42,081 nt of DNA from Gemmatimonadota bacterium (GTDB taxonomy: Bacteria; Gemmatimonadota; Gemmatimonadetes; Gemmatimonadales; GWC2-71-9), in the NCBI GenBank assembly GCA_022566515.1, contig JADFIT010000009.1, positions 1 to 42,081 of the forward strand, in the 5' to 3' direction. Positions 28,888-42,081 of the stretch are shown one piece after another. Within the stretch, counting starts at the first letter, position 1. Each line of letters starts with the position of its first letter. The position numbers and the translations under genes were made by a program. The notes under the pieces are model-generated. The model had not been told where the DNA came from. It saw only the letters and a list, made by a program, of their open reading frames with translations, and ran no database searches.

Positions 28888-29099
28888 GCCCTCCCCGCAT
28901 CGACGCCGGCCGGTTCACTAGTACGGCGTGTCACAAGTACGGTGACATGTTACCGCAATTCCGGCCCGGAGTACTGCCCGGCACCGGTTTCCGCCGGAGC
29001 TGTGCAAAGGCCCTGCCCTGAGACGTCATACAAGTGAACCCGCGGAGGGACGCGGCCATCCGTCGCCCTTCCCGCCCGCTCAACAAAGGAGTGTTCAAG

Positions 29100-39191: not shown

Positions 39192-39518
39192 ATGACACTC
39201 ATCCCCTGTCCGGAGTGCGATCGCCCGGTGTCGGATATGGCGTCGGCGTGTCCCAGCTGCGGCTTTCCTGTTGTGGCAGGCATCAGACACGCGGTGGACC
39301 AAATCACGGACGATGAGAAAACGAAATCGGCAAGGCAGCAACATGCGGCCGCAAAACTGCAGAGTTGGGGCGAGCGGTACAAGAGTTCCCGTCAGGTGGA
39401 TCCTCTCACCCGACAAGGGGACACATTCCTGGATCGCCATTGGAAGGGGATTCTGTTCGTCATCGTGACGATCATCCTGATCCTTCAGTTGACCTGGCTG
39501 CTGTCGATGTATCGGTGA
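39192..39518 (+). CDS. Small zinc-ribbon membrane protein
   Basis: This 108-residue protein starts with a zinc ribbon (IPCPECDRPVSDMASACPSC, two CxxC pairs). The middle is polar, charged and probably helical, and one C-terminal membrane segment (GILFVIVTIILILQLTWLL) ends it. It is likely tail-anchored with the ribbon in the cytoplasm. Function unknown. It begins 4 bp after the hydratase stop and is the last gene before the recQ 5' duplication, whose first copy starts 25 bp after its stop. Confidence 0.75.
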   Translation: MTLIPCPECDRPVSDMASACPSCGFPVVAGIRHAVDQITDDEKTKSARQQHAAAKLQSWGERYKSSRQVDPLTRQGDTFLDRHWKGILFVIVTIILILQLTWLLSMYR

Positions 39519-39543: not shown

Positions 39544-39692
39544 GCGTTGATCTGATCCCTGCTGCAATATTTCGGTAAAGCACCGCCGGCGTCGCGTCGT
39601 CATCGTTGTGCCGTGTGTACCGTTGAACGTTCACTCTCCGCGGCGCGCAGAGTGCTGTCTCGGGTGTGGCGGTATGACGACTTCCGCTAGGC
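39544..39692. repeat. 149-bp direct repeat, copy A (dead copy of the recQ 5' region)
   Basis: This segment aligns without gaps with 40809-40957, with about 17 mismatches by hand count (roughly 89% identity). It starts GCGTTGATCTGATCCCTGCT and ends CTTCCGCTAGGC. Copy B contains the beginning of recQ; copy A ends in a stop at the matching place. The two copies bracket 1116 bp of accessory DNA. Confidence 0.9.
39613..39690 (+). pseudogene. recQ 5' fragment in repeat copy A
   Basis: Read in the recQ frame from a GTG at 39613, this gives VCTVERSLSAARRVLSRVWR then YDDFR and a TAG (39688-39690) exactly where the intact recQ has TGG for Trp. Homology to recQ ends one codon later. It is therefore a 25-codon remnant of a second recQ allele. 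Confidence 0.75.
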
Positions 39693-39725
39693 TGCAAGGG
39701 CCCGGGTCGCCACATTAGGCTCTCT

Positions 39726-39757
39726 ATTCACCGCTGAGACCGCCGAGGGCGCAGAGA
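39726..39757 (+). repeat. Inverted repeat, left arm (32 bp)
   Basis: The left arm starts ATTCACCGCTGAGACC and ends CGCAGAGA. It matches the reverse complement of 39866-39897 at 26 of 32 positions. The arms flank the GxxExxY relic. Confidence 0.75.
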
Positions 39758-39852
39758 TGAACGGGGTGAATGAGCTTACTAACGAAATCATCGGGGCTGC
39801 GATCGAGGTGCATCGTACACTTCACAATGGGCATCCGGCGCCTCGTCCATGA
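39757..39852 (+). pseudogene. GxxExxY-family gene remnant
   Basis: An ATG at 39757 begins MNGVNELTNEIIGAAIEVHR and continues TLHNGHPAPRP before a TGA. This is the typical N-terminus of GxxExxY proteins (about 125 residues, PD-(D/E)XK nuclease-like fold), which normally continue with a GxG.LE..Y.. segment. Only about 25 family residues remain before the frame departs and stops, so the gene is truncated and non-functional. Confidence 0.75.
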
Positions 39853-39865
39853 GCTTCCAGAATAA

Positions 39866-39897
39866 TCTCTGCGATCTCCGCGTGCTCGGCGGTGAAT
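39866..39897 (-). repeat. Inverted repeat, right arm (32 bp)
   Basis: The reverse complement starts ATTCACCGCCGAGCAC and ends CGCAGAGA, pairing with the left arm at 39726-39757 (26 of 32 positions). With the arm on the other side, it makes a miniature-element-like unit of about 172 bp (39726-39897). Confidence 0.75.
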
Positions 39898-40055
39898 ACG
39901 TCACCGCAATTCGGGCCGGGAGAACTAGTCATAGGCGCGTTTCCAAAAAACCGAAAGGTCGGCCACCATGGCTGTTCCAGAGTGGCAGAAAAGGTCTTCG
40001 AGAAGATTCGGCAGGCGCAGCTGAGCGCCCATTCCGCTAGGCCGTTGACGAGCCC

Positions 40056-40313
40056 ATGCCAGAGATCTCACGTTTCCTCGGTATCGTAGTCGGCATGTTC
40101 TACAGCGAACATGGGGTCGCGCACTTCCACGCCGTCTACGGGGAGCAGGAAGTTTCGGTCGAACTGGAATCTGGGGCGGTTCACGGTACTTTTCCTACAC
40201 GAGCGCTCCGACACGTTCTTGAATGGGCGGAACTTCACAAGGCAGAATTGTTGGCCAACTGGGATCTGGCCCGGCAGGGCAGGCCGCTCAATCGGATTGC
40301 TCCCTTGGAGTGA
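40056..40313 (+). CDS. DUF4160 domain protein
   Basis: This is an 85-residue protein of the DUF4160 family. MPEISRFLGIVVGMFYSEHG then VAHFHAVYGEQEVSVELESG is the characteristic start, with the conserved HFH-like core, and LRHVLEWAELHKAELLANWD the usual C-terminal helix. Function is not established. DUF4160 genes are very often paired with DUF2442 genes, and the pair is suspected to be a toxin-antitoxin-like module. The DUF2442 gene starts 4 bp after this stop. The ATG at 40056 gives the normal length. Confidence 0.88.
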   Translation: MPEISRFLGIVVGMFYSEHGVAHFHAVYGEQEVSVELESGAVHGTFPTRALRHVLEWAELHKAELLANWDLARQGRPLNRIAPLE

Positions 40314-40317
40314 CGCT

Positions 40318-40563
40318 ATGGACTATCACGTTGTAGAGGCCCGGTACGTTGGCGGACATGTCGTGTGGCTTCGGTTTCGCGATGGCACGGTCGGAGAGAT
40401 TGACCTCGGCCCGGCGCTGCGTGGCCCCGTTTTCGAGCCACTCCGTGATCCGGATTACTTCAAGACGTTCACGGTTCATCCAGAGTTTCACACGCTCGTC
40501 TGGCCGAACGGCGCTGACTTTGCACCCGAGTTTCTCCACGACACCGTGCGGGTGACGGCCTAA
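40318..40563 (+). CDS. DUF2442 domain protein
   Basis: This is an 81-residue protein of the DUF2442 family. VVWLRFRDGTVGEIDLGPAL, FEPLRDPDYFKTFTVHPEFH and TLVWPNGADFAPEFLHD are the conserved blocks. Many members have this small size and lie next to DUF4160, as here. One partner may neutralise the other, but this is inference. The start at 40318 is four bases after the DUF4160 stop, so the two form an operon. Both genes appear intact, unlike the GxxExxY relic beside them. Confidence 0.88.
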   Translation: MDYHVVEARYVGGHVVWLRFRDGTVGEIDLGPALRGPVFEPLRDPDYFKTFTVHPEFHTLVWPNGADFAPEFLHDTVRVTA

Positions 40564-40808
40564 CAATAAGGATTGTATCCGGAGTGCTCATGAGCCGTGA
40601 GCCTGAGCGGCGTTGGTGCATGGCTCGAGGTTGAGGTCAGGGTCGCCCTACTCCCCGGGCATAGGGATCACTCCAGCTGGTAGCTGTCGGGCATCCCCAG
40701 ACGGGTCATCGTGTTGAGAATCCTGCGCCCGAGCTGCGCCGCCACACCGGCGTGTATCAACAAGTTGGCGAGAGAGGCGCAAACACGACGGCGATACCGC
40801 TGTAGGGG
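40564..40808. other. Right part of the accessory island, no recognised gene
   Basis: Between the DUF2442 stop and repeat copy B there is no plus-strand gene that I recognise. The only open frame of note is the doubtful minus-strand ORF at 40668-40868. No terminator hairpin with a T run is seen after DUF2442. Confidence 0.4.
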
Positions 40809-40868
40809 GCGTTGATCTGGTTCCTGCTGCAATATTTCGGTAAGGTACCGCCGGCGTTGCGTAGTCAT
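40668..40868 (-). CDS. Doubtful 66-residue ORF divergent from recQ
   Basis: The frame starts MTTQRRRYLTEILQQEPDQR and has a hydrophobic middle (SLANLLIHAGVAAQLGRR). I do not recognise it and no ribosome binding site is seen. Its first 20 codons lie in repeat copy B; the same codons in copy A read MTTRRRRCFTEILQQGSDQR before a stop. Of six codon differences, five change the amino acid, which argues against selection on this frame. Confidence 0.15.
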   Translation of the reverse strand: MTTQRRRYLTEILQQEPDQRPLQRYRRRVCASLANLLIHAGVAAQLGRRILNTMTRLGMPDSYQLE

Positions 40869-40957
40869 TGTTATGTCGTGTGTACCGTTGACCGCTCACT
40901 CTCCGCGGCACGCAGAGTGCTGTCTCGTGTGTGGTCGTATGATGACTTCCGCTGGGC
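40809..40957. repeat. 149-bp direct repeat, copy B (intact recQ 5' region)
   Basis: This is the partner of 39544-39692, aligned without gaps and with about 17 mismatches. It covers the upstream region and the first 26 or so codons of recQ, ending at the CGC-TGG-GC of the open frame. Sequences outside both repeat copies do not match in direct orientation. Confidence 0.9.
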
Positions 40958-42081
40958 CCAGCGACGCGTGATACTCGGCGCGCTGCGCGGCAGGGATGTG
41001 CTGGCCGTGCTGCCCACCGGCGGGGGGAAATCCCTCTGCTTTCAGGTGCCTGCCCTCGTGCTTCCGGGCACGACGATCGTCGTCTCGCCCTTGATTTCAC
41101 TCATGCAAGATCAGGTGTCCGCACTGCAACGTCGCGGTGTTGCGGCGGAGTATCTGAGCAGCTCTCAAGAGCCACACGAGCAACGCGAGGTGTGGAAAGC
41201 CTACACCGAAGGACGGCTGAAGCTCCTGTATGTGGCACCGGAGAGAATGGCACAGCTCATCGCCCGCAAACCCGATGCGCCAACCCCACTCCTTGCCATC
41301 GATGAGGCACACTGTATCAGCGAGTGGGGTCACGACTTTCGGCCTCACTACCGGGCTCTGGGCCAACATCGGATCGCTCTGGGACGTCCGCCGACCATCG
41401 CGCTCACCGCGTCCGCCACGCCTATGACTCGCACCGACATCATTCGCCTCCTCCGGATGCGCCGGCCCGTGGTGGCCCTCAACTCCTTCGACCGGCCCAA
41501 CCTCCACTTCAGCGTGAGCCGTGCTACAAGTCAGATCACGCGTTTGCGCGAAACAGCCTCGTTGCTCAAGCGGCATCCGGAAACAGCCATCGTGTACGTT
41601 CCAACGAGAAACCACACCGACGGAGTGGCGGCCGTTCTCCTGCGGTGGGGATTCCGGGCCGCGCCGTATCATGCCGGGTTGCCGCCCAAGGCTCGTACAG
41701 AACTCCTCGAGCAGTTCTTGGACGGCCGAGTGCGCGTCATGGTCGCGACCAATGCCTTCGGCATGGGCATCGACAAGAGCGACGTTCGCTTGGTTCTCCA
41801 CCTCGGCATTCCCACGCGCCCGGAGGCCTACTACCAGGAAGCCGGCAGGGCAGGGCGCGACGGTAACCAGTCCTGGTGCCGCCTCCTCTGGCTCAAGGAG
41901 GACTTGCGGCTGGCCACCGCGATGGCTCTGAAGCCCGGTACGCCGAATGTGAGCCAATCCCCCGATCACCTTCGGGCGAAGAAGGCAGGGCTGAAGACGA
42001 TGCGGGAGTACGTGCTGAGCCGGCGGTGTCGGAGGAGAATCCTGCTGGGTTACCTGGGTGAAGAGATCTCGACCTGTACCG
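40878..42081 (+). CDS. recQ: RecQ-type ATP-dependent DNA helicase (runs off the window)
   Basis: RecQ unwinds DNA in the 3'-5' direction during recombination and repair. About 401 residues are visible. The ATP site is VLAVLPTGGGKSLCFQVPAL (about residue 50), the Walker B and aromatic loop read LAIDEAHCISEWGHDFRPHY, and motif VI is YYQEAGRAGRDGNQSWC. The end reaches the zinc-binding region (RRCRRRILLGYLGEEISTC), so the rest of that domain and any HRDC domain are outside. The GTG at 40878 is one of several possible starts (others at 40917 and 40929). It is chosen because codon differences between the two repeat copies are mostly silent from about this point onward. The 5' end lies within repeat copy B. 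Confidence 0.93.
   Translation, partial: MCTVDRSLSAARRVLSRVWSYDDFRWAQRRVILGALRGRDVLAVLPTGGGKSLCFQVPALVLPGTTIVVSPLISLMQDQVSALQRRGVAAEYLSSSQEPHEQREVWKAYTEGRLKLLYVAPERMAQLIARKPDAPTPLLAIDEAHCISEWGHDFRPHYRALGQHRIALGRPPTIALTASATPMTRTDIIRLLRMRRPVVALNSFDRPNLHFSVSRATSQITRLRETASLLKRHPETAIVYVPTRNHTDGVAAVLLRWGFRAAPYHAGLPPKARTELLEQFLDGRVRVMVATNAFGMGIDKSDVRLVLHLGIPTRPEAYYQEAGRAGRDGNQSWCRLLWLKEDLRLATAMALKPGTPNVSQSPDHLRAKKAGLKTMREYVLSRRCRRRILLGYLGEEISTCT

Follow-up and report, generated by a model that had tools for sequence, protein, structure and literature searches.

How does a gene come to have its own beginning standing twice before it, with other genes between the two copies? The question is raised by the window analysed here, a stretch of 42,081 nucleotides from a Gemmatimonadota bacterium. 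Near its right end an ungapped direct repeat of 149 nt occurs at 39544–39692 and again at 40809–40957, on the forward strand, with 89% identity and a spacing of 1265, exactly where a sequence-only reading had placed it. Both copies consist of the recQ upstream region and the first codons of the gene and, as that reading also held, only the second leads into an open recQ frame, the first being a stub. The copies differ at 17 sites, of which 9 belong to the noncoding part (69 bases) and 8 to coding sequence. In copy 1 the recQ frame continues without indels up to a TAG at 39688–39690, a codon that is TGG in copy 2. The gene behind copy 2 (40878–42081, plus strand), truncated by the contig end at 42081, matches the Pfam families DEAD, Helicase_C and RecQ_Zn_bind and the RecQ family of NCBIfam; its start is putative, the frame being open from 40812 and the conserved core beginning at about 40878–40896.

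Our search of the bacterium's own genome (a 3.59-Mb draft in 241 contigs) finds the 149-bp unit in two places only, both at recQ; it is not scattered away from the gene. The noncoding part of copy 1 resembles the recQ upstream region of a relative from the same genus (G003), an alignment that none of 300 shuffles equalled, which identifies the repeat as inherited recQ sequence rather than a mobile one. Nor is it a product of chance, as no more than two further repeats of such size were found among about 88 Gemmatimonadales recQ loci. Promoter- or terminator-like sites were sought at the locus and none was found, an Rfam search gave no match, and a recQ tree meant to tell which copy is foreign gave no resolution. 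Elsewhere in the genome, a lone 60-bp recQ fragment, 93% identical to positions 41822–41881 of the window, lies between two unrelated genes (L202, contig C233, 2585–2644).

The place where the repeat lies is variable in relatives. Many of the Gemmatimonadales loci surveyed share the order S8 protease, atuA, ferredoxin-like gene, ech and recQ, always on one strand, with 121 bp to ∼6 kb between ech and recQ. The left neighbour of the repeat in the window is a gene for a zinc-ribbon protein (39192–39518, plus strand), with weak matches to zinc-ribbon Pfam families below their cut-offs and a position conserved in G001 and G003, the two same-genus relatives whose recQ locus is assembled. In G001 the ORF next to it matches no family, in G003 the next gene has a CAP domain, and in each case one recQ start follows. 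Loci with just one recQ 5′ end, preceded by different genes or by none, are one of the results that the sequence-only reading had named as support. The closest relative, G002, yields no match to the zinc-ribbon gene, and its recQ contig begins inside recQ. A scan of GTDB contigs with recQ returned distant genes only, among the matches listed.

We searched each relative's recQ locus for a repeat of the recQ start that it contains, and found that the arrangement recurs with other cargo, the other result named as support. In G030, a member of another family, 109 bp are repeated at 84% identity upstream of recQ with 269 bp between the copies, and the stub continues into an AAA ATPase gene fragment. 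In G070, from another genus, 74 bp at 98.6% identity flank 1.7 kb of inserted DNA that carries an AAA_14/DUF4143 ATPase gene; this 74-bp repeat was examined at the recQ locus only and could be a dispersed repeat of the G070 genome. Weaker second-copy matches in L024, L069, L093 and L118 turned out to be chance or other genes. Self-comparison of the ∼88 Gemmatimonadales recQ loci (645 kb; spaced repeats of at least 60 bp at 78% identity or more) detects three spaced direct repeats only, namely those of G000 (the window's genome), G030 and G070. All three lie at the 5′ end of recQ, in three genera and around different cargo. Against other long ORFs of the same loci the preference for recQ has a P-value of 0.005 by Fisher's test in a sample that includes the index case, and of 0.03 without it. 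Among 180 kb of other loci from the same family one such repeat was found, in G003. Of the unrelated recQ loci surveyed (1.13 Mb), ∼9 contain repeats of such size, with no duplicated recQ start found among them. Repeats of this kind are therefore not rare as such, and it is their position at recQ that is notable. We regard the scars of the two relatives as independent cases, which arose separately from that of the window. The type of event is already known; what is new, and rests on few cases, is its recurrence at recQ.

The substitutions between stub and working copy bear on how the two diverged. A stub that was dead from the outset would spread its differences over all codon positions. In G030, 13 of 17 differences fall at third codon positions (P = 3e–4) and only 4 residues change, as few as in 2 of 20,000 random sets. 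For the window the corresponding figure is 5 of 8 coding differences (P = 0.09), which alone is not significant, and for both cases pooled it is 18 of 25 (P = 9e–5); the G070 copies, at 98.6%, are too similar for this test. Such a bias points to copies that diverged as working genes, probably in separate genomes, and that were joined by transfer later. This applies to G030 and, less surely, to the window.

What lies between the copies had been read as one accessory island holding a decayed GxxExxY gene. Positions 39703–39929 do start like a GxxExxY gene, of which no intact version exists in the same genome while G002 and G003 have one. The segment is instead one of about 25 copies, full or partial, that a dispersed, GxxExxY-derived repeat has in the genome. 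It is MITE-like in being short, non-coding and present in many dispersed copies; it also contains an internal 34-bp inverted repeat. Its right end of 40 bp is strongly conserved (GCGGTGAATACGTCACCGCAATTC...ACTAG), its left end differs among copies, and certain copies start with CTAGTACT and finish with AGTACTAG; a target duplication was not seen. Like MITEs, the repeat is short and dispersed and has no gene of its own; unlike them, it stems from a GxxExxY gene, its left end is variable, and no matching transposase was identified. Copies are present in contigs C139, C126, C230, C130, C108, C109, C225, C53, C164, C178 and others, and several N-terminal GxxExxY fragments occur as well in G029, which belongs to a different family.

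After 126 bp without assignment (39930–40055), whose similarity to recQ or to the intervals of relatives does not exceed that of shuffles, two short genes follow on the plus strand. The DUF4160 gene (40056–40313; Pfam PF13711, 2.5e–16) resembles the DhiT toxin (NCBIfam NF048015, 5e–17, with 62 bits under a cut-off of 100) and the DUF2442 gene (40318–40563; Pfam PF10387, 7e–14) the DhiA antitoxin (NF048016, 2e–4, with 22 bits under a cut-off of 200). The pair (40056–40563), which the earlier reading had named, is a predicted DhiT/DhiA-like toxin–antitoxin module. The domains and their order are those of type II DhiTA systems, with the two short genes adjoining, and the difference is that the scores stay under the NCBIfam cut-offs. 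Dickeya has a DUF4160–DUF2442 pair that goes by the name dhiTA (PMC8198452), and on Thermus plasmids, whose DUF4160 protein is 51% identical to the predicted one of the window, such a pair enhances plasmid persistence (PMC12724237).

Next come the left half of a second dispersed repeat, a palindromic one (40556–40606), with matches in G003, G084, G086, G106 and contig C234 of the same genome, and the end of an IS5-family element on the minus strand (40607–40745), 85% identical to a sequence in contig C182 and with copies in G008, G023 and G086. In common with IS5-family remnants, the latter retains a terminal repeat (∼40609), of which there is only one, and a transposase tail, here only the last 25 codons and the stop at 40668–40745 (tblastn 69% over 26 aa, E = 1e–6, to the IS5 transposase of L156); the relative's copy in L156 encodes a full transposase that passes NF033579. 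The last 63 bp before copy 2 (40746–40808) have no assignment and no similarity above shuffles. The earlier reading had seen no integrase or transposase to explain the island; an integrase is indeed absent from its ORFs, and remains of a transposase are present. With a dispersed MITE-like repeat and an IS5-family remnant bearing a terminal inverted repeat, the middle is a mosaic and not a single accessory unit. Of the proposed insertion at the recQ start the geometry holds, with an old start left as a stub, a second one supplied and cargo in between, and the idea of one accessory island does not.

On one side of copy 2 there is homologous recQ sequence and on the other unrelated cargo. We favour, at about even confidence, the reading that the two-copy frame is a scar left by related DNA that was imported imprecisely. 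The donor would be a diverged relative with cargo upstream of its own recQ start, whose DNA recombined into the chromosome. On the recQ side the incoming DNA would have joined through homology, leaving recQ whole, and on the other by an illegitimate join within the resident recQ, without homology. One-sided homology of this kind would account for all the features described, and a circle integrating by single crossover would produce the same picture. The resident upstream region and first codons would have been abandoned as the stub, and recQ would now begin, and presumably be expressed, at the second copy. Survivors would be those outcomes that kept recQ whole, and the gap before recQ in the S8–atuA–ech–recQ cluster may be a repeated landing place for cargo. 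The insert, whose original extent is presumed, is or has since become the mosaic of MITE-like repeat, DhiTA-like pair, half palindromic repeat and IS5 remnant. In the presumed order of events mobile elements eroded it afterwards, and the 149-bp repeat may have been shortened at both ends by insertions and deletions where the MITE-like repeat and the IS5 remnant lie.

It is this possible later trimming that keeps viable another, rather unlikely explanation, in which two complete recQ genes were formerly adjacent, either tandem duplicates or the native gene with a xenolog next to it. The left gene would have been lost through MITE-like insertion and deletion and the upstream part of the right one through IS insertion and deletion, with the 149 bp as what survives of both. 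Mobile remains do lie near both repeat ends, with 10 bp between copy 1 and the MITE-like repeat and 63 bp between the IS5 remnant and copy 2, and the third-position bias is compatible with two working genes. G001, in an assembly with 7% contamination, has two recQ genes of this type, and the additional 60-bp fragment (93%) alone in contig C233 could be a further trace. Against this, the island holds no recQ remnant past codon 48, and nothing inside it resembles recQ or the zinc-ribbon gene above chance. The G070 repeat, moreover, is recent (98.6%) and just 74 bp long, so a short duplication can form at once. The draft state of the genome also makes it possible, though very unlikely, that two loci were fused by an assembly misjoin at the MITE-like repeat, given 241 contigs and up to 93 identical bases common to this copy and the one in contig C230. 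The C230 copy is itself resolved inside its contig, the remainder of a second recQ is in none of the genome's contigs, and G030 and G070 have the same frame without the MITE-like repeat.

Some integrative elements carry a replacement 5′ end for the gene, other than recQ, into which they integrate. An island that integrates in the recQ 5′ end, brings a new 5′ end with it and has lost its integrase would explain why the gene start is restored in three cases and why cargo is flanked by direct repeats. We consider it very unlikely, as we do the misjoin: stubs end at about codon 20, 26 and 34 (by assumed starts) and repeat lengths differ as well, which leaves no attachment site in common and argues against one site-specific island, nothing is common among the cargos, and an integrase is absent also from the G030 and G070 inserts. 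Breakpoints that differ between cases are what an illegitimate join is expected to leave. Slightly less doubtful, though unlikely as well, is a reading in which a class of insertions without an integrase targets the recQ 5′ end in Gemmatimonadales and, by regularly duplicating the gene start, keeps the helicase working; such a class would be a gene-specific route of cargo turnover anchored on a repair-helicase gene.

The preferred reading, imprecise import, has known counterparts in homology-facilitated illegitimate recombination and truncated single crossovers. In E. coli single crossovers left duplications of 109–950 bp around inserted DNA (PMC3240628), and a similar process was proposed for arrays of T6SS immunity genes in V. 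cholerae (PMC5361080). As there, new DNA lies next to homologous sequence that is conserved and serves as anchor, some of the anchor or of a displaced gene stays behind, and no integrase is present. The recQ case differs in being read from genomes only, in having recQ as anchor and its 5′ end as leftover, and in the 11–16% divergence of the copies in two cases. One-sided homologous import is known mainly from laboratory transformations; the three cases would be natural scars of such imprecise import, all at a single conserved gene and in bacteria that are mostly uncultured. If further cases confirm it, the gap before recQ would be a place where import rates and breakpoints can be read from genomes. 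The locus also advises caution: the lack of an integrase in a small accessory island does not by itself make the island an unknown element.

A few observations lie beside this argument. An integron cassette was considered for the DUF4160–DUF2442 pair because of an attC-like half palindrome after its stop codon and a true integron integrase elsewhere in the genome (L183, contig C168, 7484–8452; 442 bits versus a family cut-off of 265). We rejected it: other copies of the pair lack the palindrome, the palindrome family is similar beyond its attC-like boxes, and no adjoining repeat array was seen at the integrase. The dispersed repeat of this family, found at 40556–40606 as a left half and also in L186, L188, L189, L190 and L191, is ∼120–150 bp long and has attC-like outer boxes RYYYAAC ... 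GTTRRRY. The repeat in G003 mentioned above (L242, contig C30, 1638–1742 and 2640–2742) is a direct repeat of 106 bp at 82% that resembles the 5′ end of a protein-kinase gene; downstream of recQ it flanks a HepT/nucleotidyltransferase pair, so that here too a toxin–antitoxin-like pair lies between two gene-start stubs. A further dispersed repeat lies in the window at 28917–28975, with short matches in contigs C187, C88, C39, C225 and C108.
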